Below are positions 272-59,777 of a DNA stretch of 64,000 nt, in pieces. The DNA lies in assembly GCA_015143295.1 (NCBI GenBank), contig CM026560.1, positions 9,364,501 to 9,428,500 on the forward strand, in the 5' to 3' direction. This stretch comes from Tetracentron sinense. Its lineage: Eukaryota; Streptophyta; Magnoliopsida; Trochodendrales; Trochodendraceae. Numbering within the stretch: position 1 is the stretch's first letter; every line of letters starts with the position of its first letter. The notes below the pieces were generated by a model. The model searched no databases. It saw nothing but the letters and a program-made list of their open reading frames with translations, and was not told the DNA's origin. A program made the translations under genes and the position numbers.

Positions 272-456
272 AACCGATCGCTCAGTCTTGAGTAGCGATC
301 GATTGGTCCAAAACTGATCGATCGAAGGCTATCAACTGGTTAACTTTTTTGTATGGGGAAATTTTCCAGAGAGCATGTTTTTGACCGGTCGCTCGGTCAA
401 GAATACCAATCGCTCGGTAGGCAACCGATCGATCGGTCATAACCACCGCTCAGTCT
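272..456. promoter_or_regulatory. Cluster of CpG palindromes in LTR A
   Basis: Seven or so units of the type ACCGATCGATCGGT, exact or with one or two changes (for example at about 273, 293, 313, 382, 405, 424 and 445). They lie 60-250 bp upstream of the TATA-like box. A promoter role is inferred from position and from the same arrangement in the other LTRs. Confidence 0.7.
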
Positions 457-4590: not shown

Positions 4591-4807
4591 TGCGATCGAT
4601 CGCACAAGGATGCGATCTATCGCACATGAACCCGAACACTATTGTCTATTTTCCCTTTGTATGTGATTGATCGCACATATTTGCGATTGATCGCAGATCA
4701 CTGTGATCTATCGCACCTAAGACCTCATCCATCGCATATGGTCCAGAGACCTTGGGACCCATTTTGCCTGCATGCGATCGATCGCACCAAACTTGCGATC
4801 GATCGCA
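4591..4807. promoter_or_regulatory. Cluster of TGCGATCGATCGCA palindromes in LTR B
   Basis: Perfect or near copies at 4591-4604, 4611-4624, 4671-4684, 4682-4695 (offset reading), 4702-4715, 4773-4786 and 4794-4807. Neighbouring pairs are about 20 bp apart. The core differs from LTR A (TGCG...CGCA instead of ACCG...CGGT), but place and form are the same. Confidence 0.7.
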
Positions 4808-7541: not shown

Positions 7542-7763
7542 GGACCGAGTGACCAGTCCTTATGACCGAGCTCTCGGTAACGGACCGAGCGATCGGTGTT
7601 TTGACCGTGCTCTCGGTAGTGGACCGAGCGATCAGTGTTTTGACCGAGCTCTCGGTAAAAAACAACCTCTCTAGAATTTTTTCCTATACAAATTTTTGGA
7701 CCAGTCGATAGATACTAATCGCTCTGTTTTAGATCGAGCGATCGCTAGCGATCGGTGCTCTGC
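7542..7763. promoter_or_regulatory. Phased palindrome cluster in LTR C
   Basis: Alternating ACCGAGCTCTCGGT and ACCGAGCGATCGGT at 7565-7578, 7584-7597, 7604-7617, 7623-7636 and 7643-7656: start-to-start spacing 19, 20, 19 and 20 bp, close to two turns of DNA. Further degenerate units lie at about 7542 and 7700-7763. Confidence 0.72.
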
Positions 7764-15748: not shown

Positions 15749-15814
15749 TCCTCCCCCCCTTAGAGAAATTTCATCCTCGAAATTTAGAACGATACATAGT
15801 GATGATGAAGAACA

Positions 15815-17550
15815 AGATTTACATAAACATCCATTGCACAAATAAATTGGGGTACTTTTCCCTCACTTCCGCTTCGCGCTCCAATGTAGCTTCTTCCCTA
15901 GAGTGATGTTGCCATCGCACAAGAACCAAGGGAATAACCTTGTTGCGTAAAACTTGATCTCTGCAGTCCAAAATTTGAAACGGCTCTTCCACCAAGGTAA
16001 GATCCTCCCTAATTTCCAACAGATCAAGATTTATAACGTGTGAAGGATCCGGGATATACTTTCGAAGCATGGACACATGGAAGACGTTGTGAACCGCCAC
16101 CATGTGAGTGGGTAGAGCAACCCGATATGCAACTTCACTAACTCGGCAGATGATTTCAAACAGACCCACATACCTCGGGCTGAGCTTTCCTCTTTTGTCA
16201 AACCTCATAACACCCTTTGTTGGCGAAACCTTCATAAATACCATATCGCCAACACGGAACTCAAGATCTCGTCTACAGGTATCGGCATAGCTCTTCTGCC
16301 TGTCGCAAGCCATCTTCAATTTCTCCTTGATGATCTTGACCTTATTTGCAGTTTGCTCAATCAACTCGGGGCCCAATACTTTCCTTTTCCTAACTTCATC
16401 CCAATACAAAGGGAATCTATAACTTCTCCCTTACAAAGCCTCAAAAGGTGCCATTTTGATGCTCGCCTGATAGTTGTTATTGTAGGCAAACTCCGCCATT
16501 GGTAGGTGATCTTCCCAACTGCCTTTAAAGTCTAACATGCAGGCTCGGAGCACGTCCTTTATCACCTGATTCACTCTCTCTATTTGCCCGTCAGTCTGAG
16601 GATGGAAAGTCGTGCTAAAGTCCAAACGGGAACCCATTGCACCTTGAAAGCTCTTCCAGAACCTAGAAGTGAATCTAAGGTCCCGGTCTGATACAATGCT
16701 CACTGGCACCCCGTGCAACCGAACGATTTCCTTGATGTACAGTGCCGCTAACTGATTTGAGTTGAAGGTAGTCCGGTATGGCAAGAAATGGGCGGACTTT
16801 GTCAATCTGTCGACTACAACCCATATAGCATCGGATTTTCTTGCCATCTGTGGCAACCTCACAATGAAGTCCATGGAGATGTGTTCCTATTTCCACTCAG
16901 GAATATGGAGGGACTGCAAAAGTCCTGCCGGTCTCCTGTGTTCAGCTTTAACTTGCTGACACACCAAGCATCGGGACACATATTCCGCTACCTCTCTTTT
17001 CATGTTCCGCCACCAGAAAAGTCTCTTGAGGTTTCTATACATTTTAGTACCCCCTGGGTGTACCATGTACTTAGAACGGTGGGCCTCATCCAAAATCTTT
17101 TTCCGAAAATCTATATCGGCGGGGACACAAAGTCTACCCTTGAACGTGATTGCCCCGTCACCGTTCGTGGCGAACTCATCATTTCTCTTGCTAACTACCT
17201 TGTCATGGAAAGCAATTAATTTGGCATCCGCTACTTGCAACTCCCGGATTCGATCAAGGATGCACGGTTTCACCGTGATATTTGCCATCAATGGCCCATG
17301 AGTATGAGGACTAAAACAAATGTCGAGGTTGGAGGCATCCTCCAACAACTTCCATTCTCGAACCATCATATACGCCATAAGTCCATGTGACTTCCTACTC
17401 AAAGCATCTGCCACGACGTTAGCTTTGCCCGGATGGTATTGAATCGAACATTCATAGTCCTTCAAAAATTCCATCCATTGCTGCTGCCTTAAGTTCAACT
17501 CCTTCTGGGAGAACAAGTACTTCAAACTTTTGTGATCAGTGAACACCTCA
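15815..17550 (-). pseudogene. Gypsy integrase and chromodomain-like C-terminus (fossil)
   Basis: The zinc-binding end of integrase (residues around [10 protein letters not shown] and RPAGLLQ) is followed by the core with DFIVRLP, VVDRLTKSAHF, SDRD and FHPQTDGQIERVNQ, then the C-terminal part with FRVGDMVFMKVSP. The last 60 or so residues (ILDCRDQVLRNKVIPLV, then WQHHSREEATLE) match the chromodomain-like tail typical of Tekay/Del chromoviruses, thought to steer integration to marked chromatin. Decayed; no complete frame. Confidence 0.88.
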
Positions 17551-18800
17551 AACTATTCCCCGTATAGATAGTGTCGCCATATCTTCAATGCAAACACTAC
17601 TGCGGCAAGATGTAGATCATGTGTAGGGTAGTTCTTTTCATGATCCTTCAACTGTCGAGAAGCATACGCCATAACCTTTTTGTTCTACATTAGAACACAC
17701 CCTAAACCGACATGGGAGGCATCACTATACACAACAAAGCCGCCGCTTCCAGAAGGCACGGTGAGGACGGGAGCTGTAGTGAGCCGCTTCTTCAACTCTT
17801 GGAAGCTAATCTCCCATCTATCGCTCCAACTAAACTTGGCGTTCTTCCTCGTGAGGTAAGTGAGCGGTGCAACTAAACTGGAGAATCCCTCCACAAATCT
17901 CCTATAGTAGCCTGCCAACCCGAGGAAACTCCGAATCTCGATGACGCTTCTAGGTCTTTCCCAATTCATAACTACCTCTATTTTCATCGGATCAACGGAG
18001 ATACCTTCGGCTGATACTACATGACCCAAAAACGCTACCTTCTCCAACCAGAATTCACACTTGCTTAGCTTGGCATATAGTTGGTGCTCTCGCAAAATTT
18101 CAAGAATGAGGTGAAGGTCTCGCTCGTGATCTTCCCATGTCTGGGAATACACCAATATGTCATCGATAAAAACTATGACACATTTATCGAGACAAGGCCT
18201 GAACACCTGGTTCATCAAATCCATGAACATCGCCGATGCATTCGTCAAACCAAAAGGCATGACTAGGAACCGTAATGCCCATATCGAGTCCTGAAGGCTG
18301 TCTTCGGAACATCTTCTGCGTTGATCTTCAACTAGTGATAACCCGATCTAAGATCGATCTTGGAGAAATATCTCGCTCCTTTCAATTGGTTGAACAAGTC
18401 GTCTATCCTTGGCAACGGATAACGATTCTTGATAGTGACTTTATTCAACTGTCTGTAGTCGATGCACATTCTCATCGACCCGTCCTTCTTTTTCACAAAG
18501 ACGGTCGGAGCTCCCCATGGCGACACACTTGGTCGGATAAAACCAAGTTGTTGTAATTCTCCAATCTACTTCTTCAGTTCCTCTAGCTCTATTGGGGCCA
18601 TCCTATACGGTGCTCTTGAAATTGGAGCTGTGCCCGGAGCAAGCTCAATCGCGAACTCGATCTCTTGATCAGGAGGCAAACCGGGAAGTTCCTCTGGGAA
18701 TACATCTAAAAACTCACTTACGACCGGGATGGTTGAGGAGTTTTGTGCCTCTGGGTTTGCTAAGCTTAGTGTCGCAAAGCGAGCAATATCCCTTCTTTGC
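17550..18800 (-). pseudogene. Gypsy reverse transcriptase and RNase H (fossil)
   Basis: Recognisable blocks in order: [72 protein letters not shown], then [10 protein letters not shown] with the catalytic aspartates. These are followed by the [11 protein letters not shown] block and the start of RNase H ([15 protein letters not shown]); the RNase H end ([12 protein letters not shown]) runs into the integrase region. This is the standard Ty3/Gypsy order. Decayed. Confidence 0.9.
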
Positions 18801-19190
18801 AATCCTCAAAAATGAAATGGCTTAACTCCTTGTGGCCTAAAGTTCACCATCTTCTTAAAGCATGCCACATGGCCGTTATGAGTTGTTAGCCAATCCATAC
18901 CAAGAATGACATCAAAGTCCAAGTCTTGGAAATCCAAGATAATAAGGTCGGCTAACAACTCGTTCTCCCCCACTTGAACCACACTATCCTTGTATATTTG
19001 GTCTGTATCAACTGACTTGCCAAGCGGAGTCGCAATAGTTAACTCCCGCTCCAATGGAGTGGACTCAGTTGAAAAGCTCTTCACAAAACTGGATGAGACA
19101 AAAGAGTGTGTGGCTCCTGTGTCGATCAACACTCGGGCTAGACACTCGTTCACTAATAAGGCGTCTGTGCGACTAAACACTAACATCAAT
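18800..19190 (-). pseudogene. Gypsy aspartic protease (fossil)
   Basis: Contains LIDTGATHSFVS, the D-T-G active-site motif of retropepsin-like proteases, and FDVILGMDWL, the second conserved block. It lies between the zinc knuckle and the reverse transcriptase, as expected in Ty3/Gypsy. Confidence 0.85.
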
Positions 19191-19469
19191 AGTTTTCAAG
19201 CAAGAACATGCATCATACATAGGTAACCCCTAGTATAAATAATAATATATCACATAATATAAATCATTCACAACTTAAAACTCTAACATTCTTGTGTACC
19301 TTGCATGACATCATCTGATGTATGTGTGTCTCTCTCTGATAAGGCAAAGACTTGGGCTTGAGTCGCTTGACGAGGCGGCCATGTAGACTGTGTGGGCCTC
19401 AATGCTGGTGAAGAGCTCTGCTGAGATGACTACCTGACAGGGGGCCTACTCCCCTGAGACTAAACCGAC

Positions 19470-20480
19470 AAGTGTCGGTGGGGACAATCCCGAATTATGT
19501 GGCCTTGGTCGCCACAATGGAAACAGCTTCTCGTATATTTCCGGCACTCCCCTGCTGGATGTCTCCTTCTACAAAGGATGCAAATATCTTACGAAAAAGT
19601 GGAAGGTTCATAACCCGTAGCCTGAGGCACTGCGGGGCAAGGAGCCTGAGTGGGAGCCGGGCGAAAAGTCGGTGGAGCAAAAGGGTAAAATGCATGTGGT
19701 ACAAAATATAGCCTCTATGACTGGGCTGGCCCTGAAGGCTGCTACGTTGTAGTTCTAGCTCTCTTTTCTGCCGAACCACTAGACTGGCCCTTCTCCATTC
19801 CCCTTCTTTTGAAAAACTCTTCAGAATTCGACTCTGCTAAGAGGGCTTTATCTACAACTTCTGAATATGTCTTATGTCTAAACATTGAGACTCGATCCTT
19901 GAGGTGGGCCTTCAACCCCCTCTCAAATTTCTGGGCTGTCATAGCCTCGGTCGCTATCCTATGTGGAGCAAATCGAGATAGCTCCAAGAACTTGGCTTCA
20001 TAAGCTGCCACTAACATGCTACCTTGCTCCAAGGTAATAAATTCGACTTCCTTCTTTTCCTTCATCCCGATGGGGAAGTACTTCTTGTAAAATACGTCCA
20101 AGAACTCTCCCCACGTCCATTCTTGGCCTTGCCGGGTCAACTCTCGGGTCCTAAGTGTGGACCTCCACCAATGGTTGGCTTCGCCTTCCAGCATAAAGGC
20201 GGCCCAAGTGACCCTTTTCACTTCAGTAGGTGTCATCACAGAGAAGATCTTTCAAGTTACCGGATCCATCCTTCGGTAACAAACGGGTCAATGCTTCCAC
20301 AAAAAGTTGGAGGCCTGATCCTTCGAAAAGCCTCTATTTCAGCTTGTGCTCGATTGGGAGGAGCAGTTACAAGTGTGCTGGCCGGAGGAGGAGTAGGTTT
20401 CCTTGTGGCCAACATAGCCAAGGTTTCAGCTATTGAAGCAAAAGCTTGGGCAAAGTCGGGTTGATCATCACCCAATAGAG
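19470..20480 (-). pseudogene. Gypsy gag with zinc knuckle (fossil)
   Basis: The retrotransposon gag domain shows FMLEGEANHWW, WGEFLDVFYKKYFP and FLELSRFAP blocks at about 19.9-20.2 kb. A CX2CX4HX4C knuckle (CFHCGDQGHIIRDC) can be read at about 19474-19525. The proline-rich N-terminal part (around KPTPPPAST) is upstream near 20.4 kb. Decayed. Confidence 0.85.
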
Positions 20481-20858
20481 CATCACTTCCATTGCCCCTT
20501 GTGTTGTATCTGCAACCTCAAGCATTGTGTCTCATGATTAGATCCTAAGAATGAAAATACACATGAGTCTAACTTGGATACGCATTTAGTAACAATTTCA
20601 AAATTCACTCAACACATATTCAATAAGCATGGAACAATGCTCATATAGTATACATAACAATAGCATAACATACAATCCGTGTCTCTAGTGTTAGGACTCC
20701 AAGTTTGGTTGAAGCTCAACCTATTTTGACTAAGACTAATTTGTTAGTCTATACCTGGAACACGACTCTTTCATATTGCTCTAGTGACTTCTTCAATCAT
20801 GGTATCAAGTACTAAGTGACCCTGGGGACTCTAATGCCTAGAGCTTTGATACCACTTC
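20481..20858 (-). promoter_or_regulatory. Gypsy leader and primer binding site
   Basis: Adjacent to the right LTR, the minus strand reads GAAGTGGTATCAAAGCTC (about 20841-20858). This matches the TGGTATCA tRNA-Met type primer site with one change from the usual AGAGC. The rest is a short leader without a gene. Confidence 0.8.
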
Positions 20859-23518
20859 TGTCGCGCCCGAAAATACCAAGAGTTAAGGGATACTTTAGGT
20901 GTGACTATACATACCTGCCAAACCATCCTGTAATGAACAAGGTAACATAATACAATAAAGACAATAATCAGAGTGCGGAAGCTAAATCATGAGTGCGGAA
21001 GCATGAACTAACTTTTTCATTTCTATATAAGGTGTTCTGTGTTCCAAGTGAATAGATATACAAAACATATCAAGGTAAAGGTGAACATGCCCACCTATCA
21101 AAATACAAAAAAAAAGAACTATTAAGCCCACTATGCTCAAAAGTAGTCTAAATATGGCCAGACATCTCGATCTCTATCCTCCTGCGACTGCATCGGGATA
21201 GGTGGCTCTCTCTCCTCTACATATTTTTCCTCAACCCAAAGCTCAGGGTTGAGGGCTTCCTCGGTACCTGCCAACATAAAAATACGGCTGAGCATGGAAT
21301 ACTCAGCGAGTACAAGCTACTAGCTAATAATAGCAATAACAAAACACAACAATGATAATCACAATACACAACATCAATTCAAGGTAATACTAGCAACGTG
21401 TGATATTCATAGCATTGAAGTAAAGCGATGTAACAATCTTGACATGCTTGAATGAATGCAAAAACTCCGGTAAATCTCATACTTGAAAGTCATGTTTTTA
21501 TTCTTGAAAATAGTCTTTCGTGTTTCTTTCAAAACTTGCTTGTTGTGTTTGAAAACGTGTTTCTTGCCTTGGTCTCATTCGTGAGAATCACACATGCTTG
21601 TCTTGTTCTTGTTTGGAATCACTTGTCTTGCTTGTTTTTGCCATGTTCTTTACTTATCATGCTTGTATACTTGTGAGCCAGAGGTTAGTGCCCTTGAGGC
21701 GACTTGTGAGCCGGGAATATAAGTTCCCTTCAAAGAAATATATATATAGAAAAGGGTAACACCAACCTCCTTCTCTTGTTTTCTTGTGAGCCAGGTATGA
21801 CATATCCTAGGGATATGCCCTACCCTTGATATTCATGCTTGTTTAACTTGTAAACCAGGTATGACATATCTTGCGATATGCCCTACCCTTGACCGGCCCG
21901 ATGTCCGACTTTATCAACTTGCTTGTTTAACTTGTGAGCCAGGAATAACATATCCTAGGGATATGCCCTACCCTTGACCGGCCCGATGTCCGGCTTTATC
22001 AACTTGCTTGTTTGTGAATCACATCCTTGTTCTTGTTGTTTTCTTACATACATATCCTTGAAAACCCGGTTCATGCATGTATGCGTGCTCGTGGGTGAGA
22101 TTCGTGTGCATAATGATGACAAAGAAGGATTGAGAAAATATATTTGGCATTTGAACAATTTTAGGCACATGATAGGCATTGGAAAATTCATAAGGCATAG
22201 CATTTTTTTCACTAACATTTGGGGAAAAGTCCTTAGTTCATATCTCATAGCTTTTATTCCACATTTTTGCACATACATTATATCAAACATCTTGCATGCA
22301 ACATTTGTTCAACCATTTATTCATATTCCTTCATCTTAAGCCTTTAAATTTATTCATGCATTTTCTCAAACATATGGCATTCAATACCTTTTTATATTTG
22401 TTTATTTCATATTTTCTCATTCACACAATTCATCAAACACATAGGTGTATTCATTATGTGTACCAAGCCCTTCCACCATTTTCATCACACAACATTCATC
22501 CCTACTTAGTTTTTCTTGTATTATTCAAAGAATCAAGGTAGTGAGGTAAGAATAGGATACTCATTATCAATCATAACCTATTTCAAATGAAAACCTAGGT
22601 TACTACTAAGTTAGTTAGTAAGGGTGTACTAACCTTGTCAGGATCCCTTCTTAGTTCGAAGAAACCCTTGAACAAGAATCCCAACTTGAGGAAGAAAATC
22701 CTTGCTTAAGAGGATGATCCAAGATTGATTTGGACTCTCTTTGATCTCCACAAGACCCCTCTTGAAAATCCCCAAACCTTTCCTCTCCTTCCTCTCTTTT
22801 CCTCTCAAAAAGTCCCTCTCTTTGTGTTAGGAACCTTGGACCCTTGAAAATGGGGTATATATAGTGTTAGGTTTATGAAAAACCAAAAAAAAAAAAATGT
22901 TTCTGGGTGATCTCGCTCGAGCGGACCTCAATCTCGCTCAAGCGGGTTGCTCACTGGCCTCAAAAACCCATTTTTCGCCGATCTCGCTCGAGCGGATTTG
23001 GATCTCGCTCGAGCGAGTTCTTCTACAAAAACCCGCTTTGGTAAATCGGCCAGAACTTTTGACTCGATGGTCCGATTTTGACGATTAACCTTGCGTTCAA
23101 TTAGTATTTCGAAGGAGAAAAACTTTTATGTTTTGTACAAATTCTAATTCTTCTTTATTCTTAGACCATGTTTCCCTTAAAGCCGACTGATCTGCAATAG
23201 GTTACGACAGTCCAATTTGCAACCAACCCGGTTTTGGAAATTGAATGTTTGACTTTACCTCGACTCAAAATCCGAAAAAGTGATCAACATGGACCTCGAA
23301 GAAGGTTCCAATACCTTTCCAAAAACTCAAGAATCGCTTGATTTCGATGAGTAGTGACAAAACTAAAGCTCCTTAAAGTTGAGGGTAATGCTAAGGCATA
23401 ACCTTCATTAACACTTAAGAGTATTTTGCACTCTTAAACCTTCATCCCAACACCCATAAACTTAAGAAAATACATCTTAGGGCAATTAATACATATCATA
23501 AAGATCCGGGGTTCTACA
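20859..23518 (-). repeat. Right LTR (5' LTR in element sense) of the Gypsy element
   Basis: TGTCGCGCCCG...GGGGTTCTACA, 2660 bp, the partner of 13098-15748. It has the stem-loop 21287-21306, tandem hairpin units about 21785-22000, leader hairpin 22615-22633, TATA-like box near 22857 and palindromes 22909-23022. Confidence 0.93.
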
Positions 23519-24682: not shown

Positions 24683-27495
24683 TGTAGAGCCCTGGATTTC
24701 ACATGCACTCTTCAAGTGAATAGTGTTAGTGTACAAGGCATGCAAAGGCCTAAGGCCTACCATGTGTTCGTGATATTATGAAAAGTGAAGTGAGAATTTT
24801 ATATGTGTATGTTGAGTCTCAAAATAAGAGTATAATAATACTCAAGTATGTAGGGTATATAATACCCTAAGTGCGAATGTAGAACCCCGGGAACCCATTT
24901 CACAGTGTTATTAATAGTGTCATGGGCACAAGTATTGTAAAGGCCGAAAGTCATTTATGTAACTTGGTTTATGAGGCATGATAAGAATAGTTTAAATTAG
25001 TTTAAGTGTTGTTGTTGGGTGTTTGGGATGAAGAAACAAGAGTATATCATACTCTAAGCGTTGTGAAAGAGGGATGTCTATACATTTCTTCAGCTTGTGG
25101 GAGCTCTAGTTTTGTCGTCGCTAACCGGAATTCAGTGATTCTTAAATTTTTGGAAAGATATTGAAGCTCTCTTCAAGGTTAATGCTTTACACTTTTTTAT
25201 ATTTTGAGTGTAAGTTATGTCAAATGTGAGGGTTCCGAAAGGTGGTCTGTTGTCGATTCAGTAGTTATTTTGGACCAGTCCATTTGTTGGCCCATTTAGA
25301 CCATTAAGATCTCATAATTATGATTTTTACAACATGAAAGTTGTTCCCCTTTGAAAGACGAGTCCAACGCAAGTTGAATCGTCAAAATCCGATAAGCGAG
25401 TCAAAAGTTATGGTCAAAATACTGAGGCGGGAAAAACAGAGGAAATGGGGACCAAACCGGTCGACCGAACTTTGGACCGGTTGACCGGTCAATTGTTCAT
25501 TTGCACACTAGACGATTTCCAGTGAGGTTTTAAGGGTATTTTGGGGTTCTAAGAACCCCAAACTCTTATATAAACAAAAATTTCATGGGACTAAGGGCTC
25601 TAACAATGGGAGAGTAGATTTTTGAGAGGAAAAGAGAGAGAGTTAGGGTTTCAAAATGGGGTTTTCAATTGGGATCAAAGTGGAGCTTAAGTCTTGCTTC
25701 CAAAGGCTTCCTTAAGGCTTGGAATCTCACTTTCACGTGCCATTGGAGTTGGATCTTCATCCACAAGCTTGGATTTCTACTCAAGGGTTCTCCTTCAACC
25801 TAGGAATTGATCCAAGAGGTAAGTAAAACTACTACCTAGCTTTACTATGATACAAATAGTAAGTGATTCCAATATCTAACCTTGTGATTATGCAAAGATA
25901 TAAATGATGATTTAATGGGTGATTTTGAATGACATTGTAAGAAATCCTACTAATGAACCTCATTAGGAAAGTAAGATTTTGGGTAAACTAGATTATGATC
26001 AAATGAGTAAATAAGGGTTTATGATTTGGGGGTTTTTCAATAAAAATGATGAATATGGCTATACTTGTAAGTGAATGTTATTATCTCTAAATAAACCATG
26101 ATTTTAAGTATGATATGAAGAAATAGGCTTGAAAGCCATGATCTTTTTGATGTGATGCAAGAAATGAAAATATTTCATGTTTTAGAATTTGTTCAAGTAT
26201 ACTATGATGATAAAATGTCTTGCATGAACCCATATGAAATGTTAAAGTTTTCCCTATACAAATGACGAATAAGTTTGCATGTTTAGGGAATTCCGAAGTA
26301 TACTATAAGGTTATATGTCTTGATGGAAGCATGCCCTTAAGGTTTATGTTTTTCTAAGCACCATATGATGTTCACAAGTACTTGTTGCACACACCATTCT
26401 TGCTTGCCCGTTTTCTCGTGACTATGGTATTTCTAGCTAATAAGAAAGAAAAAAAGGTTTTAAAGAAGCTCGTAAGAACAACGAATATACTCATAAGCAC
26501 TCGTGAAGAACTTGTAAGAAGTTGAAGAACTTGTAAGAACTCGTAAGCTAGTGGGATGGCCCGAGGAGCGCCACTAACCATCTAATATTCCCAAGCTACT
26601 TTGGGTGGGTGTTTAGTGGCATGGTACGAAGGGTGCCACTAGTGAAGGACTCATAAGAACTCGTAAGCACACTTGAAGAACTTGTAAGAACTCGTAAGCT
26701 AGTCGGATGGCCTGAGGAGCGCCACTAACCATCTGATATTCCCAAGCTACTTTGGGTGGGTATTTAGTGGGATGGTACGAAGGGCGCCACTAGTGAAGAA
26801 CTCATAAGAACTTGTAAGCACTCATGAAGAACTTGTAAGAACTTGAAGAACTTGTAAGAACTTGGAAGAACTTGAAGAACTTGTAAGCAAAGACATTACT
26901 CATTTTCTACCATGTTTTAAGGTAAGATTTTAAAAAAGTTATGCACACTTGATGTATCAACTTGAAGTATGATCTTGATGACATATTGAGCACGAATCCT
27001 GAACTGTTATGTTTTGTACTTGTATGCAATATTTAGTTATTATAGCATTGTTAGTTAGTAGTTTGTACACGCTGAGTATTCCATACTCAGTCGTACATTT
27101 TATGTCAGCAGGTTCATTCGGCATTGCATCCTAGGGGACTAGATCGAGATGGATTATGAAGGGCAGGAGCCTTCTTGGGAGGTTCTTGAGGATGATAGGG
27201 GTCTTGACATACGACCTTATGGTTGAGCAATACGGAGGGAGAGACATGTGTTTTGGGTTTTATTTCTGGGGATATTTGTGTCACTTGAGTTGGTAACTCA
27301 AGTTAAGGATTTATGTACATGTCTTAATTCATATTCAGTTATTGTAAACAATTGCCCTTCGAATACAGTTAAGTTATTAAAGAAAAATTCATTTCATTAT
27401 TTAGCATGCCTTGTATACTCTTTGCAGGATGGTTTTAAGTGTAAGTGTCGTCGCCAAAGTCTCATCTCTCCTAGGTGGGATTTTGAGGTGTTACA
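24683..27495 (+). mobile_element. Solo LTR D, Tekay-like Gypsy family
   Basis: TGTAGAGCCCTGG...TTTTGAGGTGTTACA, 2813 bp, with GTTTT duplicated at 24678-24682 and 27496-27500 within the Copia protease region. Layout: two palindromes at 25455-25490 with core ACCGGTCGACCGGT, TATA box (TATATAAA) near 25567, splice-donor-like AGAGGTAAGTA near 25816, tandem repeats about 26470-26885, stem-loop 27071-27091. No coding region. Confidence 0.92.
26470..26885 (+). repeat. Tandem repeats in solo LTR D
   Basis: Two copies of a unit of roughly 190 bp containing GTGG...CCAC stem-loops (for example GTGGCA and TGCCAC near 26610-26640), framed by many short AAGAACTTGTAAG repeats. They occupy the same place in the LTR as the hairpin arrays of the other copies. 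Confidence 0.7.
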
Positions 27496-36400: not shown

Positions 36401-36469
36401 GGAACTAAGAGTTTCTATTTCTACTCCAAGGCATACTAAACAATAGTTGTTAGGCTTCATGCTACTTTC

Positions 36470-42100: not shown

Positions 42101-43925
42101 TGTAGAACCCCGAATCCTTATTTCACTAAGTAGTGAATAGTGTGTGAATTTTAAGTGTAGCCTTGTAAACTTGAGGGTTTATACAAATAGAAATGTTTGG
42201 ATATATGGTGTGCACATGTTAATAGGCCTATATATCCTTAACGAAGGTGTTTCAAGCATAAAAGGTGTTAGAAATAGGATTAGAGAAGGTTCAAGTAGTG
42301 GAAACAGGGTTTTGCAACAAAACAGGTGAGCATCGATCGCTCGGTGATAACCACCGATCGACCGGTCATCTACCGATCACTCGGTAGTTGTCGACTGGTT
42401 AACTAATTTGTATGGGGAAAAATAACAAAGAGAGTGTTTCCAACCGATCTCTCGGTTGAAACCACCGATCGCTTCGTAAGCCATCGATCGCTCGATCCTG
42501 ACCACCGATCGATCGGTTGTGCTTAGATTTTCTTCATTAAGGGTCTTTAAGTCTTTAGCCAGTACCCCTTTGCCTATAAAAGCCTTGGTTCGTGCCTCAG
42601 GGTTTCAGAAACCCTTGAGGCTTATTTTGAGAGGATTTTGAGAGGGAGAAGAAGAAGGAAGCTAGGGTTTGCTCAAAACTTGAAGAGAAGATCGAGGTCT
42701 TCCCTCTTTTGGTGTATCCTAGCAAAGAACTTAAGGTTTTCACGTGTTCCAAGCCTTTGGAATCAAAGTCATCTATTTTACCAAGGTAGATACACTCTGC
42801 TACCAATCTTGTGATACTACTATTTACCACATAATGTTCTTCTCATTCTATGCTATAAACTCTTGATTTGATATGGTATGTGATGTTATTTTTATACTTG
42901 GATATAAACTACCTCTATTATGCACTCTACGTGTTTGATTTAATGCCTCTAAGGGTTTTGGTGATTAAATGTGTTATTCTCTCATATGTTCGCATGTCTC
43001 GCATGAACAAGTGTTTTTCCATGGATTTCACAAAGTTAAGAAAAGGTTTTTGACTAAGAGACTTATATGAATGATTCTAAGCAACTCCATGATCTGTCTA
43101 AGATCGGTTCACAAGCTCCAAGGATCATACTAAACTCATAAGAACTCTATGATAAGTTCTAAGATCGGTTCACAAGCTCTACGGATCGCAAATGAAATGT
43201 TCTAAAATCTATATGGTATTGGCTCTATGGTATTGCTCTATGTCTCTACGGATCATAAATAACTCTAAGGAACTCTATGAACTCCAAGAACTCACAAGGC
43301 TATGATTATCGCATGACTCACACAGTTTTGGTTTTGGTTTCAGATTTCATCATATGTGTTATTTCACGGTTTCCTTACTTTGACAAGTTTTACGGGTTTC
43401 ATTCTCCATGATTCGCATGCTCTATGCTATTATTGCTTTATTGTTAGTAGTATGTATATGCTGAGTATTCCATGCTCAGCCGATATTTGTTATCATCGGC
43501 AGTGCTCGGGTTCCCTTCGATCTACGTGGTACAGAGCCTTGGGTAGAGGAAGAGTATTACGACCCGGAGCCTTCTATGGACCACTACCAGGATGATGGCC
43601 CGCTAGATAGGTGTCATGACTTTGATTTCTGTTGACTCTGTTAGTTAGAAGGATATGATATTTTGTTAATTGAGAGTGGGACTTGTCCACTCCACAGTTT
43701 TGGATACATATACATGTGTATATGTTGTTGGTTCACACTTGGACCAAGTAATAGGAGTGTTCAATTATATTTTGCTTCCGCTATGCATCTCAAATCGTTT
43801 CCGCTATGTATGTCTGTGTACTCTGACAGGTTATTCATGTGTCTTATGTATCATATGAGATGTATGATACGGCGGTCACGAGTCCAAGTATCTCTAACTC
43901 CTAAGGGGTATTTTGGGTCGTGACA
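42101..43925 (+). mobile_element. Solo LTR E, Tekay-like Gypsy family, short form
   Basis: TGTAGAACCCCG...TATTTTGGGTCGTGACA, 1825 bp, with CAATG duplicated at 42096-42100 and 43926-43930. The shortest of the group, because the tandem-repeat zone (about 43060-43270, two units with GATCGGTTCACAAGCTC) is small. Palindromes lie at 42332-42518, the TATA box (TATAAAAG) at 42575-42582, a GGTAG...CTACC leader hairpin near 42785 and the stem-loop at 43460-43480. Confidence 0.92.
42332..42518. promoter_or_regulatory. Palindrome cluster in LTR E
   Basis: Units related to ACCGATCGATCGGT near 42332, 42353, 42372, 42443, 42463, 42483 and 42504; spacing mostly 19-21 bp. The cluster ends about 57 bp before the TATA box. 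Confidence 0.72.
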
Positions 43926-46018: not shown

Positions 46019-46716
46019 TGTCACGCCCCAAAATACCCCCTAGGAGTTAAGGGATACTTTAGATGTGACTACGTGTACCTGTCAAACCATCCTGTAATGC
46101 AAGAGGCTAAACATAATATAATTCAATGAAAAATCAGAGCGCGGAAACTAAACATAAGTGCGGAAGCATAAGCCAACTTTTCTTTTCTTCTATAACTCCA
46201 AATAGTATTCCAAGTTAACATATACCAAATACAATCAAAGTAAAGGTGGACATGCCCACCTATCAAAATACAAAAGGAACTCTCTAATCCTCTCCTCTCA
46301 ACAGTAGTCGAGGTATGGCCACACATCCAAGTCCCCATCCTCCTGAGACTGCCATGGGATAGGTGGCTCCCTCTCCTCTACATACTCCTCCTCGACCCAA
46401 GGCTCGGGGTCGAGGACATCCACAGTACCTGCCGACATAAAAGTACGGCTGAGCATGGAATACTCAGCGAGTACAAACTACTAGCTAACCATAACAATAG
46501 CGAAAGCATAACAACAGTGAGCAATACAAGATATTAATTTAAAGCAATAGTGAAAGCATAAGATACATAGCCATATCTTGACATGCGTGTATGAATGCAA
46601 AAACCTCGGTAAAACTCATGTCTCGGAAACCCTTTTCGTGTCTCGGTCAAATCATGTATGTGTATCGTGTCTTGTCTTGTATTTCATGTCTTGATTTGTT
46701 CTTGACTTGTATACTT

Positions 46717-47175
46717 GTGAGCCAGAGGCTAGCACCCTTCCTTGGGCTACCAACCTCCTTGTCATGTTCTTGTTCCATTTCTCTTGTGAGCCAGAGGCTA
46801 GCACCCTTCCTTGGGCTACCAACCTCCTTGTCATGTTCTTGTTCCATTTCTCTGAGAGGCTAGCACCCTTCCTGGGGCTACCAACCTCCTTGTCATGTTC
46901 TTGATTCATTTCACTTGTGAGCCAGAGGCTAGCACCCTTCCTGGGGCTACCAACCTCCTTGTCATGTTCTTGATTCATTTCTCTTGTGAGCCAGAGGCTA
47001 GCACCCTTCCTTGGGCTACCAACCTCCTTGTCATGTTCTTGTTCCGTTTCTCTTGTGAGCCAGAGGCTAGCACCCTTCACTTGGGCTACCAACCTCCTTG
47101 TCATGTTCTCTCTTGCATTTCACTTGTGAGCCAGAGGCTAGCACCCTTCCTTGGGCTACCAACCTCCTTGTCATG
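46717..47175 (-). repeat. Seven-unit, 69-bp tandem array in LTR F
   Basis: The AGAGGCTAGCACCC element recurs at 46724, 46793, 46855, 46924, 46993, 47062 and 47133: intervals 69, 62, 69, 69, 69 and 71 bp. Each unit carries AGGCTAGCACCC...GGGCTACCAACCT, which can pair. Units are nearly identical, so the expansion is recent compared with the age of the LTR. Not a CRISPR array: the unit is continuous, without unique spacers. Confidence 0.88.
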
Positions 47176-48164
47176 TTTCATTTTCTTGTTTGCTTTATTA
47201 TGCACAATTACTCTTGGAAAACCCAATTCATGCATGCATGCGTGCTTGTGTGCTTGTCAATAGTGGTAATCATGATGACATACTTGAATGAGCGGATCAC
47301 ATGAATATGGCATTTCAATCCTTAACATAGTGGTATGAAAATTTAGGCAACATATAGCACATTTGAGCAATTTATCATTCCTAAGAAAATTTACACAATT
47401 TCTATTTCCATTTTCTTCATTAAGTCCGTTTATCCCTTGTTTAGTCATTTTATCAAACACACGGTGGGCCACATTTCTTAGTCCTTCCATTTCCCTTATT
47501 TAGTGCGTATTTTTCATCAAGACATCAAGGTACATTCGTTATTTGTAAAGTGCCCATCTTCCATTTTCCTTTTCACACATCACACAACATCCATACGGCA
47601 TCCAATCGCCTCAATCGACATCTCATCCACACATTTATTCCATTCCCCTTATCTTGTTTATATTTGTTGAGTTAATACAATGCATAGGGAAGGAAAAGCA
47701 TAATATATATAATCACCATTTACACTAGAAAACCTAGGTTATTGCTAGGGAAAGTTAGTAGGGTGTACTAACCTTAGATCAAGGTTTGATCTTGAAGAAA
47801 CCTTGAAATAGAAGCTCTATTTGGAAGGAGGAAGCCTTTGCTTGAAGGGGACTTGAGTTGGGGGAAGAAACCTCTTTCAAAACGTGAGTGAGTGCTGCCC
47901 TAGCTTGGAGAATGCACCTCCACACGAGCTTGAGTTGAAATCGTGAAGAAAACGTGCTTGGGGACGATCTAGGGTCTTCACCCCTTTGATTTCTTCTCCA
48001 AAAGCAACCTAGGTTTAGGAAACCCTTTTCTCTTCTCTCTTATCTCCCAAATCTCTCAAATGTTGTAAGTGAGGCCTCAAAGAGTCGAGCAAACCCTTAT
48101 GGGTAAGGGTTTAACACCCAAAAGACGAAAATGCCCTTACTGAAATTTCTGCAAAAACGCGAAG

Positions 48165-48349
48165 ACCGAGCGATCGGTGGTTATGACCGATCGATCGGTT
48201 GCCTACCGAGCGATCGGTGTTTATGACCGATCGATCGGTCAAAAACTCACTCTCTGGAAAATTTCCCCATACAAAATTTCTGACCGTGCGATAGCTACCG
48301 ATCGATCGGTTATGGACCGATCGATCGCTGACTGGACCGAGCGATCGGT
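48165..48349. promoter_or_regulatory. Phased palindrome cluster in LTR F
   Basis: ACCGAGCGATCGGT or ACCGATCGATCGGT at 48165, 48186, 48205, 48226, 48298, 48317 (one arm changed) and 48336. Start-to-start spacing within groups is 21, 19, 21 and 19, 19 bp. Two groups are separated by about 58 bp, as in LTRs A, B, C and E. Confidence 0.78.
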
Positions 48350-48566
48350 GCTCTGTATGTCTGGACTGTTTTGACCATATCTTTTGACTCGCTCGTCGGA
48401 TTTTGACGATTCAACTTGCGTTGGGTTCGTCTTTCGAAAACGCACATTTCTGACGTTTCGGAATTTCCAATTTCTCCTTTATTTATTAATTAGACTACAA
48501 AAACGGCCAATTAGCTATGAAAGTGCCATTCATTAAAGATGAAAAAGTCCGGGGTGCTACAGAAAC

Positions 48567-48817: not shown

Positions 48818-50181
48818 TGAAAAATACTTCGGTGAACCTCAAATCTAGGGTTTGAGTTGAGTATCTCACAAAGTTAAGTGCGGAATAGAAGAGAAACAAA
48901 CAAACCATAACACAAGGATTTTTAAGTGGAAACCTTTCCGGGAAAAACCACGGGACCTAGTCCAGCCATGAGAATCTACTAAGACAAAGTCAACAAGAAC
49001 TTACAAGACTCGAACTTAACTCCTTCGGACTCGATACTACGATCCTTTAGTTCTTAGTCCTCCATGCCTCGAAAATTCACCACATACTCTCAAGTCCCGT
49101 GATCAACCGCAGTCCCTCTTACTTCTCTGTGTCTCGAAAATAGTCCACGATATTCGGATCGATCTCACATCCACGATCCGTCTCGGATCGAACTCCTTCA
49201 CAAAGGCTCCGGAACACTTCAGCCAAGTTGTTCTATCCAGAATATGTTGATGGTTTAATAGAAATCAACACCTAGATGGACTTCTTCAATGGAAAAGTCC
49301 AAACAAGCAAAATTTGAAGTTTGGGCTAGCAAACTCTAGGTTGAATGCACTAACAAAGGGGAGGAGAACACTAAGTTTTCCAAAGTTTTTATGAACTCTA
49401 GAACGAGTTAAAAACCCTCTCTATACTCTCCCTAAGTTGTTCTCCACGAAGTAGAAGGGTTCTAACTTTATAAGGAATCAAAACCAAGCTTTGAAAGTTG
49501 CAAAAGTGGTTTAAAAACCAAAGAGGAATGAAAAAAACGTATAGGAATGATTTCCCATATCAGGGTCGACCCTGGGGGTTAGTTGGGTCGACCCAAGTGT
49601 GCAGTTCGGTCGACCAAACTAACCTCCAGGGTCGACCCCCACTTTTCCTAGTCTCTGCCCATTTGCACCATACAAAAAAGCTTCTATTCAAGGTCGACCC
49701 CCAATGGTCAAGGTCGACCCTGAGGTGCAATCATGATCTTAAAAAGTCATTTTTGGATCTCGCTCATGAAAGTTGTATCTCTTTTTGATGCGATCCTTTT
49801 GATATATTATAGAGAAAAATCCGAGCTACAGTTTGTGAGATATGCCCAAAACAAGCAAGCTTGGTTTTTTGAAAAAATTCAGATTTTTAAACAAGTTTTG
49901 CACTGTTTATCTCATCACCTAGGGTCCGTATGATTAGTCTAGGTCACTTACAACCTAAGGTATGATATTAGGATTATTTTAAGTCAGTTCCCACCTATAG
50001 CAGCATGGTATCTAGGTCACTTACCATCCTATGAAGAAAATGATCATCCGAGTCTTCAACAGTCTTCAACTTCACTTGTTTGTGAATGCTTGACGGCAAA
50101 GACACAAGATACACACCTAGACACCTAGACTCACTTGTTTTGACACCGGAATATGCCAACACAAAAAACATGGACTTTATA
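48818..50181 (-). repeat. Left LTR (3' in element sense) of the gag-only element
   Basis: Begins TGAAAAATACTTCGG on the plus strand. TATA box TATAAAG (minus strand) near 49468-49474; GGTCGACC palindromes at 49562-49721 upstream of it in the element's sense. Confidence 0.9.
49562..49721. promoter_or_regulatory. GGGTCGACCC palindrome cluster in the gag-only LTR
   Basis: AGGGTCGACCCT at 49562-49573, TGGGTCGACCCA at 49584-49595, then related units near 49606, 49628, 49690 and 49710: spacing about 22, 22, 22 and later 20 bp. The partner LTR has the set at about 54779-54917 with one unit fewer. It lies directly upstream of the TATA box, as in the Gypsy LTRs although the family is different. Confidence 0.75.
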
Positions 50182-53906: not shown

Positions 53907-55348
53907 TGAAAAATACTTCGGTGAACCTCAAATCTAGGGTTTGAGTTGAGTATCTCACAAAGTCAAGGGGATGGTTAGGTTTTCCTACAAGTCTGTCTAC
54001 CTTTTTAATGTTTTAACAATTAAGTTATTAATATAGGGATGATAAACTTTAAAGTGCGGAATAAAAGAAAAACAAGCAAACCATAACACAAGGATTTTTA
54101 CGTGGAAACCCTTCCGGGAAAAACCACGGGACCTAGTCCAGCCGTGAGAATCCACTAAGACAAAGTAAACAAGAACTTACAAGACTCGAACTTGACTCCT
54201 TCGAACTCGACACTACAGTCCTTCAGTTCTTAGTCCTCCATGCCTTGAAAATTCATCACGTACTCTCAAGTCCCGTAATCAACCGTAGCCGCTTGTACTT
54301 CTCTTTGTGTCTCAAAAACAGTCCACGATCTTCCGATAGATCTCCGTCAATAACGGCTTCAGATTCCACCGACCAATTCACGCATCCATGATCCATCTCG
54401 GATCGATCTCCTTCGCAAAGGCTCCGAAACACTCCGGCCAAATTGTCCTATCCAGAACGGGTTGATGGTTTGATAGAAATCAACACTTAGATGGACTCCT
54501 TCAATGGACAAGTCCAAACAAGCAAAATTGGAAGTTTGGGCTTGCAAACTCTAGGTTGAATGCACTAACAAAGGGGAGGAGAGCACTAAGTTTTTCAGAG
54601 TTTTTATAAACTTTAGAAGGGGTTAAAAACTCTCTTTATACTCTCCCTAAGTTTTTCTCCACGAAGTAGAAGAGTTCTAACTTTATAGGGAATCAAAACC
54701 AAGCTTTGGAAGTTGCTAAAGTGGTTTAAAAACCAAAGAGGAATGAAAAAAATGTGTAGGAATGATTTCCCATATTAAGGTCGACCCTGGGGGTTAGTTG
54801 GGTCGAATCAAGTGTGCAGTTCGGTCGGCCAAACTAACCTCCAGGGTCGACCCTCACTTTTCCTAGTCTCTACCCATTTGCACCATACAAAAAAGCTTCT
54901 ATTCAGGGTCGACCCTGAGGTGCAATCACGATTTTAAAAATTCATTTTTGGCTCTTGTACCCTTCATAAAAGTTGTAGATCTTTTCGGTGCGGTCATTTT
55001 GATATATTATGGAGTAAAATCCGAGTTACGATTTGTGAGATATGCCCAAAATAAGCAAGCTTGGTTTTTTGAGAAATTTCAGATTTTTAAACAAGTTTTG
55101 TATTGTCTCATCACCTAGGGTCCGTGTGATTAGTCTAGGTCACTTACCACCTAAGGTATGATATTAGGATTATTCTAAGTCAATTCCCACCTATGGTAGC
55201 ATGGTATCTAGGTCACTTACCATCCTATGAAGAAAATGATCATCCGAGTCTTCAACGGTTTTCAACTTCACTTGTTACACCAGACACACACCTAGACTCA
55301 CTTTTTTTGACACCGGAATATGCTAACACAAAAAACATGGACTTTACA
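53907..55348 (-). repeat. Right LTR (5' in element sense) of the gag-only element
   Basis: Partner of 48818-50181. It contains about 80 bp near 53970-54055 (a T-rich block) missing from the other LTR and lacks one palindrome unit present there. Ends GGACTTTACA. Confidence 0.9.
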
Positions 55349-57430: not shown

Positions 57431-59777
57431 TGTGATGTCTTGTCCCTTAATGATCTTAAGTAAAAATTTAAAATAACTAAGTGCAAGAATGTTAGAAATT
57501 CTAGAAATTGTGTGGTTTTAGTAAAAGCATAAATTGTTGAATTTTGAGATGATTTTTTTAGGAAATATGGATATTTATAGATTAAATAAAGATGTCATTT
57601 TATGAGATTTTATTATTAAGTATAGAGTGGTTAACTCGACTATCGAAAATCTTACGACGACGAGATTTTCAGTTTTTAGCCTAAAATTGGAAAATGAGAT
57701 TTTAATTTATTAGAAATTTGATTTTCTAATATTTTTTATTAAATTCAAATAGGGGGTACTTTCTTATTTTAATTTAAATTAAATGAAAATAAGTATTAAA
57801 ATGTTTTAAAGGAAAATAAGTATGCTGATGGGCTAATGCTGAAGAGGAAAGGGTGTTGGTACTGTTGAGAAAAATGGGAACTGTGCTAGCTGCGATCGAT
57901 CGTAGGTAAGCTATGATTGATCGCACTGAACCTTGAAATTTGGAAAAATCTCTGTGCCATTTGCGATAGGTGGCATCTGTGTACAATCGATCGCACTAGA
58001 GTGCTACGATCGATCACAGTTGCGCACATGAATTTTAAAAAAGTTACGGAAATTAGGGATTTAAACCCCTAGATTATAAATAGAGGTTCTTTTTTGAAGA
58101 TTGTAGGGTTCTAACTTTTTTAAACCTAATTTGGCAAAGAGGTGAGAGAAAACCTAGAGTTCTAAGGAAAAGATTGCTTTGAGAGAAATGAGATTGCTTG
58201 AAGATTGTAAAGAAAACTTGAAAATCAACATCAAACCTTCTTGTGAGCATTTTGGACAAAATGAACGATCTCAAAGGTCGATATACTATCCAACTGACTT
58301 CTATTATGAACTTATGTATGTTTAAGATGGTTTAAGCTATAAATAATGGATTATTGGTATGATTATGATAAGATCGTGGATAATGATATGAGGATTATGA
58401 GTTATTATGAATGAGTATAACTATATGAAAATAATATGGAGTTTTCTTATGAAATGAATGATGTTTAGCCTTAAGAATTGAGTGAATGGAGGATGGGAAT
58501 GTATGTGGATGAATTTAAGATTTTATATGATTTTTGAATTGTGTACAAATGGAGGATAAGAATGTATGTGGATGGATTCATGATTTATATGGTTGGTAGA
58601 ATGTGTACAAATGGAGGAAATGTATATTTATGATGGAGGATGAGTATTGTTAAAAATTGATTATAAAATATGCTAAGAATTATGATAAAGTATATATATG
58701 TGATATTGTTTGTTAAATTATGTCTAATTATTTTGCATTGTAATTGATATTCGGGAAGGTAAGAACTTAGAGGAAAGACTTCCATGTTGAGAATTCTCTA
58801 ACCAGTGAGATGTAACCTGACGGAATTTCTTGGCGGAGGTTTAGAAGCTAAGGGATGACCGATTCGAATGTTAATTGTAACACTTAAGCACAAACTCACA
58901 TGTGTGTTAAGATAAGAGTCTCACAAATCACACATTTGGACCACAAGCATAAGCATTGCATACATTTGATAGACTGAATAAACTCAATGATGGATTTAAA
59001 TATGTGTATGGATCTGAATAAGCTGCTTAAATACTCATAAGCATAAACATTTTATACTTTCAATGAGAGATCTGAATAAGTCCGATGAGGGATTTGAATA
59101 AGTTGTTCAAAGACTCATAAGCATAAACATCTCATAAGCACGTGGTCTCATAAGCATAAACATCTCATAAGTATGGTGTCTCCTAAGTCTAAGGTTGTCA
59201 TAAGTACACGAGTTAAGATGATAATATGATGTATATGAACACATGTTCTTCCGCACTCTGATTATGTTATTATGCTATTAGTTATGATTCTAAATAAGTA
59301 TCGGGATACTATCTTGTTGGTTGAATTTTATATACACCGAGTGCTTTTGTACTCGGCCAGACTTTTGTCTTGACATGTGTGGAGCCCGAGTTTGTAGGTG
59401 AGCCTTAGGTAGAGGAGGTTTACGACGTAGAGGAGGAGATTGATCCATTTGCTAAGGAAGAACGAAATTTGGACATGTGGCCTTACCACTAGGCTTTTAC
59501 TCTTGAGTTGCGAGAAGTTTTTCTAATAGACATTGGGATGATGTTGCTTACCAGATTACTTTATAGTTGAGTATTAGACTATTTTGTTTATGGTGGATTA
59601 TGTTTATGATGACCGTAGACTTGAGCAGGATGGTTTTGTTTATAAATTGAAATTTTATTACTCTTATTTTTTGAGACTCATGTTGTATGTCTTGCATGTC
59701 ATGAGATTTAAGCAGGTTTAAGAACTATGGCGACCCAAGGTCCTATTTTCGTCAAGGTTTGATTTGAGGTTGTTACA
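57431..59777 (+). mobile_element. Divergent solo LTR G of the same architectural class
   Basis: TGTGATGTCTTGTCCC...GGTTGTTACA, about 2.35 kb. It has palindromes (GCGATCGATCG type) at 57891-58021, a TATA box (TATAAATAG) at 58075-58083, a donor-like AAAGGTCGATA near 58275, repeats of a CATAAGCATAAACATCT type at about 58940-59210 and the stem-loop in altered form at 59337-59356. Sequence similarity to LTRs A-F is low but the layout is the same. No convincing 5-bp duplication flanks it, so it is old or its ends are misplaced by a few bases. Confidence 0.65.
57891..58021. promoter_or_regulatory. Palindrome cluster in LTR G
   Basis: Units near 57892, 57913, 57984 and 58006 of the GCGATCGATCGCA type: two pairs, 21 and 22 bp apart, about 70 bp between pairs, ending 54 bp before the TATA box. 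Confidence 0.7.

Follow-up and report, generated by a model that had tools for sequence, protein, structure and literature searches.

Dyad-symmetric CpG-rich arrays before the promoter of Ty3/gypsy long terminal repeats in Tetracentron sinense: regular spacing, changing sequence classes and sharing between different repeats

In a 64,000-nt stretch of the 1.16-Gb genome of Tetracentron sinense (C10:9364501-9428500, here called the window), long terminal repeats (LTRs) of a Ty3/gypsy family carry arrays of short CpG-rich palindromes that sit between a conserved block of the U3 region and the promoter. The units of these arrays are dyad-symmetric with a sharp limit at 14 bp, they are regularly spaced, their sequence class has switched between related LTRs, and arrays are shared between different LTRs. 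We favour, with moderate confidence, the reading that the arrays are homotypic clusters of binding sites for a dyad-symmetric (homodimeric), probably host-encoded protein and that they would act as an enhancer of the LTR promoter. An initial annotation of the window had listed nine such clusters and ascribed them to a dimeric host factor bound on one face of the DNA; symmetry, spacing and mostly uniform cores fit this proposal, while the factor itself is something we infer.

The focal array (48165..48349, minus strand) consists of seven dyad units of 14 bp in two groups. The units start at 48165, 48186, 48205, 48226, 48297, 48316 and 48336, which corresponds to start-to-start distances of 21, 19, 21, 71, 19 and 20 bp, the 71 bp lying between the nearest units of the two groups. 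All clusters of the window were scored at one threshold (at least 6 of 7 complementary pairs per 14-bp unit), and seven such units were obtained for the focal cluster versus a maximum of two in 300 mononucleotide shuffles. The LTR with this array is ~2.5 kb long (46019..48561, minus strand, TGTAGCACCCCGG...GGGGCGTGACA; ends read directly and from self-similarity). In the sense of the LTR, the conserved U3 block CAAGTTGAATCGTCAAAATC (48399..48418, minus strand) is located upstream of the array and a TATA-like box, CCATAAG (48096..48102, minus strand), 62 bp downstream of it. The 185-bp array was 100% identical at all 40 scored places (593 candidates).

To sample LTRs blind to palindromes, the exact 20-mer of the U3 block was used and the first 100 places, all on contig C1, were taken with 600 bp each. 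Exact copies of the block number 6,916 + 6,987 = 13,903 genome-wide (reversed control 0), and its strong conservation contrasts with the fast-changing neighbouring arrays. Between 60 and 330 bp from the block start, 328 dyads that pair at 6 or more of 7 positions were counted in the 100 LTRs; in 100 dinucleotide shuffles the figure was 42.8 (sd 5.9) and never exceeded 61. The 77 nonredundant LTRs gave 228 versus 33.4 (sd 5.5). Farther downstream (330-470 bp) 33 dyads were found versus 19.1 in shuffles. The palindrome enrichment that the initial annotation had predicted was thus obtained; the table of 6/7 units from the sampled LTRs includes some A+T-rich chance palindromes. LTRs were assigned to a class by at least one match, with at most one mismatch, to class motifs that were typed after viewing the LTRs. 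On this basis, the 100 LTRs comprised 36 ACCG, 25 CAACG-type, 10 TACG, 8 TGCG and 3 GACG, together with minor classes (CGTCGACG 3, GGTCGACC 2, and GGCG, TCCG and CTCGAG 1 each) and 10 LTRs in no class. Dyads are in excess in the sampled LTRs and genome-wide, but the original statement that every LTR carries such an array goes too far: 10 of the 100 LTRs belong to no class, 25 hold a different, CAACG-type array, and several copies in the window are decayed. A single class was present in 82 of the 90 classed LTRs; most LTRs thus have one core throughout, and cores vary from LTR to LTR, as had been expected. In 20 random 10-kb stretches, clusters of one CpG palindrome occurred in seven, beside six non-CpG families (no shuffle control). 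Within CAACG arrays, gapped palindromes were in excess at gaps of 2, 3, 4, 6 and 7 (30, 17, 30, 43 and 42 versus 8-9), unclear at gap 0 (15) and not in excess at gaps 1, 5 and 8; this count is inflated by tandem duplication and therefore carries no weight in our reading.

The symmetry of the units was analyzed by covariation in 83 occurrences of the core CGATCGATCG, which derive from 36 of the 77 nonredundant LTRs, with 2000 permutations. The first base outside the core was complementary to its counterpart in 64 of 83 occurrences (28.3 expected, permutation maximum 44) and the second in 77 of 83 (35.4 expected, permutation maximum 50). At bases 3 and 4, complementarity was found in 13/83 and 28/83, compared with 19.1 and 20.3 expected. 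As covariation is missing there, the unit ends at 14 bp, seven bases into each half. When each LTR was given a single vote, 29 of 36 were palindromic, and these votes covered six different outer pairs, in line with the earlier suggestion that palindromy is kept while the sequence changes. Genome-wide, hybrids of ACCGATCGATCGGT (the ACCG palindrome) and TGCGATCGATCGCA amounted to 647 + 672 = 1,319, compared with 30,033 (reversed control 3) and 6,889 pure palindromes, whereas random pairing of half-sites would give ~28,768 ACCG/TGCG hybrids. The scarcity of hybrids and the covariation of the outer bases therefore define a 14-bp dyad whose half-sites change together. That cores differ from copy to copy, as had been proposed, holds between LTRs; many of these differences, however, are only an altered outer dinucleotide pair around a conserved CGATCGATCG, and only some cores are wholly different. 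One of the cores named as palindromic, ACCGAGCTCTCGGT, is an imperfect palindrome (reverse complement ACCGAGAGCTCGGT) and qualifies as a 6-of-7 dyad.

The spacing of about two helix turns reported before was confirmed: of the 281 gaps between neighbouring units in the 67 classed nonredundant LTRs, 198 measured 19-22 bp. Genome-wide, in bins picked after the local spacing was seen, CGATCGATCG pairs numbered 13,143 at 19-21 bp versus 109 at 24-26 bp, CAACG-N4-CGTTG pairs 7,495 at 19-23 bp versus 63 at 24-28 bp, and pairs of GGGTCGACCC followed by GGTCGACC 2,691 + 2,717 at 20-22 bp versus 41 + 35 at 23-25 bp. Most of the long gaps that separate groups measure around 50 or 71 bp and fewer around 40 or 91 bp, close to multiples of 10.1-10.5 bp. 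Among periods fitted to the arrays other than CAACG, 10.45 bp was best for the long gaps, where 8 of 1000 jittered sets did equally well, and 10.10 bp when all gaps were used, where none of 1000 did; a strictly helical period is therefore only tentative. Past the last unit, a TATA box was recognised in 25 of the 77 nonredundant LTRs, 61-202 bp (median 73) from the centre of that unit. The median observed/expected ratio of CpG was 1.44 in the arrays, 0.21 downstream and 0.54 in the window.

Arrays of unrelated sequence occupy the same place in otherwise closely related LTRs. L115 has an ACCG array and L090 a CAACG array. Their identity is 96.3% in the 217 bp upstream and 87.9% in 539 alignment columns downstream, and between these matching flanks lie unrelated arrays, 161 bp in one LTR and 554 bp in the other. 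Beside its new array, L090 seems to retain a mutated remnant of the first ACCG unit. The same pattern was obtained for L122 and L115 (94.8% and 88.2% identity). In addition, a tree was built by a quick search from the upstream flanks of the 67 classed nonredundant LTRs with the arrays left out (175 columns; 12 of 64 inner branches starred). On this tree the array class changes 16 times, with a minimum of 9 and 38.5 changes in shuffles, and the starred branches force at least five changes for ACCG and at least three for TACG; CAACG LTRs fall among ACCG LTRs. The notion that cores switch over time is borne out by these changes.

Exchange of LTR modules was visible in nine LTRs that share the identical 185-bp array (L001-L008 and the window LTR), which were compared in 12 pairs and 25-bp bins. 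From the array to ~200 bp upstream, near the LTR start, all bins of the 12 pairs were 80-100% identical, and past ~250 bp from the array start seven of the 12 pairs dropped to 40-76% for ~250 bp. The window LTR matched L001 at 92% per bin to ~275 bp, with agreement returning from 525 bp, and it matched L003 at 96-100% from 300 to ~600 bp. Because bin identities change in this manner, the LTRs are mosaics. One break, ~28-53 bp beyond the TATA-like box, is close to where R should begin and would match first-strand transfer between co-packaged RNAs. L001 and L003 diverge from ~225 bp, before the TATA-like box, so that a rule based on the start of R misses some breaks.

Sharing of an array reaches beyond this LTR family. 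Of the 100 sampled LTRs, L133, from an LTR family without the U3 block, matched only CAACG-type members (23 of 25). The matches are confined to positions 344-447 of L133, within the CAACG array that it carries itself. With linkers included, this array is 89% identical to L110 over 100 bp and 91% identical to L090 over 77 bp. The partner of L133 lies ~10.7 kb away, and the interior encodes a Ty3-type reverse transcriptase (RT) with a second RNase H, which we take to be a Tat-like trait; this RT with second RNase H (L134) could belong to a nested element. L132, L133 and L018 form a separate LTR family with CAACG-N4-CGTTG dyads that are mostly spaced by 23 bp and have a variable 4-bp centre. Judged from these comparisons, the array behaves as a movable cassette between LTRs, an exchange absent from the initial interpretation, as was the Sirevirus precedent described below. 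It is conceivable, and we put it forward only tentatively, that different LTR lineages trade a library of dyad-array cassettes in which the geometry is kept and the recognition sequence is switched or replaced, similar to antigenic variation, and that elements could in this way change their host activator and shed targeting by small RNAs or methylation.

The carrier was characterized in the element at 13098-23518 (minus strand), which is flanked by LTRs related to the focal LTR. Its internal region (15749..20855, minus strand) encodes Ty3-type gag, protease, RT, RNase H and integrase, with SH3_Tf2-1 and a weak Chromo match. Profile matches were obtained for Retrotrans_gag, Ty3_capsid, RVP_2, RVT_1, RT_RNaseH, Integrase_H2C2 and SH3_Tf2-1, and for rve below its cut-off. 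The order gag, protease, RT, RNase H, integrase is that of Ty3, and the sequence itself shows the primer-binding site TGGTATCAAAGC and a polypurine tract. Based on domain matches, primer-binding site and polypurine tract, the element is assigned to Ty3/gypsy. The Chromo match (E 0.017, 15.5 bits versus a curated cut-off of 25.1) is at the expected place, and the element is probably a chromovirus; it may be Tekay-like. In this 5.1-kb internal region, 6 of the 11 open frames of at least 110 codons are gag-pol and 5 match no family. As the 11 frames of this one element gave gag-pol matches or none, a protein that binds the arrays would probably be the host's.

According to the binding-site reading, each 14-bp site would be composed of two 7-bp half-sites bound by a dimer, and sites about two helix turns apart would align the dimers on one face of the DNA. 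The arrays may change in three ways: by a symmetric change of the outer dinucleotide that affects most units of an array, by replacement or expansion of a whole array in place, and by module exchange between the LTRs of different elements. Breaks of such an exchange fall near the TATA box and where R is expected to begin, and one is positioned as first-strand transfer between co-packaged RNAs might leave it. Switching would change the factor or paralogue that is used and, as a conjecture, might remove silencing targets. LOB-domain proteins were considered as binders of such dyads and dropped, as no supporting paper was found.

Several observations weigh against this reading. The shuffles leave tandem amplification unmodelled and the units of one LTR share descent. 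CAACG-type LTRs have lost the CGATCGATCG dyads. L050 and L051, an apparent CAACG-type LTR pair 7.9 kb apart, are identical over 470 bp; this element looks young, and the CGATCGATCG dyads are therefore not indispensable (in a second CAACG pair, L069 and L070, 417 of 470 positions agree in an ungapped comparison). Asymmetric variants, ACCGATCGCTCGGT and AGCGATCGATCGGT, appear repeatedly in the same order, an order not expected from a simple symmetric site. In L133, no clear TATA box follows the array when read in the direction of the interior coding frames. Finally, in a first count over all 6/7 units, G.T mismatches (37) exceeded A.C mismatches (15), which leans to pairing at the RNA level.

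This last point belongs to an explanation in which the U3 palindromes function at the 3' end of the RNA, where they would fold into hairpins that serve the element or the production of small RNAs by the host. CGATCGATCG-class arrays indeed fold more stably than their shuffles (30 each), with median z of -4.2 for ACCG (14 of 23 LTRs), -5.7 for TACG (8) and -4.5 for TGCG (7), and small RNAs of maize Sireviruses are described as being in excess at palindrome clusters with strong predicted structure (PMC10760457). CAACG arrays at the same place, however, fold ordinarily (median z -0.24, 14 of 18 LTRs), and at least one such element looks young; neither the spacing of 19-23 bp nor the limit of the unit at 14 bp is required by RNA pairing. 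Moreover, transitions at CpG sites are strand-symmetric in a class-based count: C>T, which leaves G.U, occurred 68 times and G>A, which breaks the pair, 74 times, as expected from use at the DNA level. The strand bias was therefore rejected as a sign of RNA-level selection, as it failed to repeat in this count; the imbalance was probably caused by repeated counting of recurrent variants. We consider a function in RNA unlikely. Only slightly less doubtful is neutral turnover without any binding protein, in which tandem slippage and correction of imperfect palindromes by template switching during reverse transcription would hold the units uniform and symmetric. Quick expansion and replacement of arrays, with the mutated first ACCG unit that L090 seems to hold, would be in line with it, and symmetric change of outer bases is what palindrome correction predicts. 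Correction should, however, spread symmetry outward, while the covariation ends at base 7; the units are palindromic although their linkers differ; and dyad families whose cores differ all show the 19-23 bp spacing, pairs immediately beyond this range being 70- to 120-fold scarcer.

Shared descent alone, with one old enhancer that drifts together with its LTR and no special switching, is strongly disfavoured. The class is strongly clustered on the flank tree, with far fewer changes than in shuffles, as this explanation would have it; the 16 changes nevertheless exceed the minimum of 9 and starred branches force recurrent ones, the flanks of L115 and L090 agree around unrelated arrays, the window LTR is a mosaic, and an array segment is common to the otherwise unrelated L133. 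Least probable of all, if by little, appears a system in which a sequence-specific anti-silencing protein, encoded by the element itself or by a partner, co-evolves with the arrays. VANDAL elements have target motifs in tandem arrays; these vary among related elements and evolve jointly, and the protein is encoded by the element (PMC5735166, PMC10398659). In the 11 frames scanned (one element), no such family was detected, a search that a protein outside Pfam would escape, and VANC21 motifs are described there in one orientation, while the arrays here are dyads.

The closest precedent are the repeated-motif (RM) boxes in the LTRs of Ty1/copia Sireviruses (Bousios et al., 2010; PMC2829016). In this paper, RM boxes are called Sirevirus-specific relative to classic Ty1/copia elements and have a CGG-CCG core signature, with Tnd-1 as the one exception listed; clusters of RM boxes are described as CpG islands. 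As described there, they resemble the present arrays in being palindromic, CpG-rich, several per LTR, clustered shortly upstream of TATA and element-specific, and the Vitis box CGGTCGACCG is identical to window positions 25458-25467. Here, too, a repeated palindromic motif precedes the TATA box, which was recognised in part of the LTRs only. Unlike the RM boxes in that account, the arrays are carried by Ty3/gypsy elements (Ty3_capsid, RVT_1, RT_RNaseH, Integrase_H2C2, SH3_Tf2-1); CGGTCGACCG-type cores are found in the GGTCGACC class (2 of 100 LTRs) and CGG-CCG is missing from TGCG, TACG, GACG, CAACG and other classes; a CGATCGATCG dyad in which the outer bases can switch is the most frequent unit, and different LTRs have arrays in common. 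A spacing rule for RM boxes was not seen in the sections consulted.

Further likenesses are more limited. The small-RNA hotspot of maize Sireviruses also consists of clusters of regulatory palindromes in the LTR with strong predicted folds (PMC10760457, on Bousios 2016), a fold that the CAACG arrays lack, and in that 2023 study maize Ty3 elements are generally without an obvious structural peak. In VANDAL/VANC arrays, too, short motifs have multiplied within noncoding tandem repeats and diverged in concert from one related element to another (PMC5735166, PMC10398659), but their carriers are DNA transposons with their own anti-silencing protein, the motifs have a single orientation, and PMC5735166 does not use the word "palindrome". 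An LTR motif of einkorn RLG_Quinta with a proposed Copia-LTR origin is another LTR segment common to unrelated families, but this 162-bp motif is tied to nucleosome placement and, as far as described, holds no dyad array (PMC11302176). LTR chimeras from Onsen bursts fit best with a first template switch in R and are a direct example of the exchange proposed here for the break near R; there, recombination was among copies of one family in new insertions and involved no array cassette (PMC5668417). Among the matches listed from the open-licence literature, outside which most subscription papers lie, no report was found that describes arrays of this kind for Ty3/gypsy LTRs, symmetric switching of cores or swapping of dyad arrays, and nothing relevant on CGATCGATCG was among them. 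Palindromic LTR boxes before TATA are thus already known from Sireviruses, while Ty3/gypsy carriers, symmetric core switching and array swapping appear to be new.

If the binding-site reading is true, modular swapping of binding-site arrays in retrotransposon promoters, long suspected, becomes directly testable; L115 and L090, which differ mainly in their array, are natural promoter-swap experiments. The palindrome-box architecture of Ty1/copia Sireviruses is now found in Ty3/gypsy elements, including one identical motif, and this identity in both superfamilies points to a putative shared plant DNA-binding factor that might be recovered with a short bait.

The other arrays of the window are less well preserved. 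While the focal cluster has seven units, the remaining eight listed as palindromic keep one to five, and four of them (272, 22909, 25455 and 57891) just one. ACCG-class arrays are located at 272..456 (plus strand; decayed, 1 unit at 6/7, CTATAAG 60 bp downstream) and 42332..42518 (plus strand; partly decayed, 3 stretches at 6/7, TATAAA 56 bp away). A TGCG-class array (TGCGATCGATCGCA) at 4591..4807 (minus strand) has 5 stretches at 6/7, of which one is out of register, and a decayed TGCG-like array at 57891..58021 (plus strand) has 1 unit at 6/7 and TTATAAA 52 bp away. The array at 7542..7763 (minus strand) is composed of ACCGAG-variant dyads (4 stretches at 6/7, U3 block exact). Placement before a TATA-like box, claimed for every cluster, applies to the focal array, but at 4591 and 7542 no such box was found. 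The two LTRs of element 13098-23518 hold arrays with the core CGCTCGAGCG, at 15139..15247 (minus strand; block exact, TATATA 43 bp away) and 22909..23022 (minus strand; block with 2 mismatches, 1 unit at 6/7). Two units, CGGTCGACCG and ACCGGTTGACCGGT, stand at 25455..25490 (plus strand; block exact, TATATA 76 bp away, 1 unit at 6/7). Near the nine listed clusters, the U3 block is thus exact in four, has 2 mismatches in one and is unrecognisable within 250 bp in four (272, 4591, 42332 and 57891). The original list was incomplete, as it had missed two arrays of GGGTCGACCC dyads that belong to a separate repeat pair: one at 49561..49724 (minus strand), with the first three dyads at 22-bp spacing and TTATAAA 87 bp away, and its more decayed partner at 54790..54918 (minus strand). 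A copia-type gag match near the array at 49561..49724 is below its cut-off.

Some minor observations were made alongside. LTRs of the focal kind contain minisatellite-like tandem repeats with 62-87 bp spacing (46644-47193 and 1421-1795), which in LTR sense are downstream of the promoter. Among the sampled LTRs, L031-L034 (C1:2009014-2012595) show four U3 blocks within 2.7 kb, partly as inverted repeats and each followed by a non-palindromic CCGAAAA-type tandem array, and L109 may represent a further class with GGATCTATCC/GGATAGATCC dyads that lack a CpG core. A telo-box-like palindrome, AAACCTAGGGTTT, recurs in LTR stretches and in L029 and L036 starts ~76 bp past the TATA box. TATAAATAG boxes and plant-type LTR elements are present in the genome. 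Outside the LTR family, the window contains a 401-residue open frame with a DUF4283 domain (40103-41305, minus strand) and two related copia-type copies (27498-29622 and 35394-37531) that are 90% identical and match gag_pre-integrs, rve and RVT_2.
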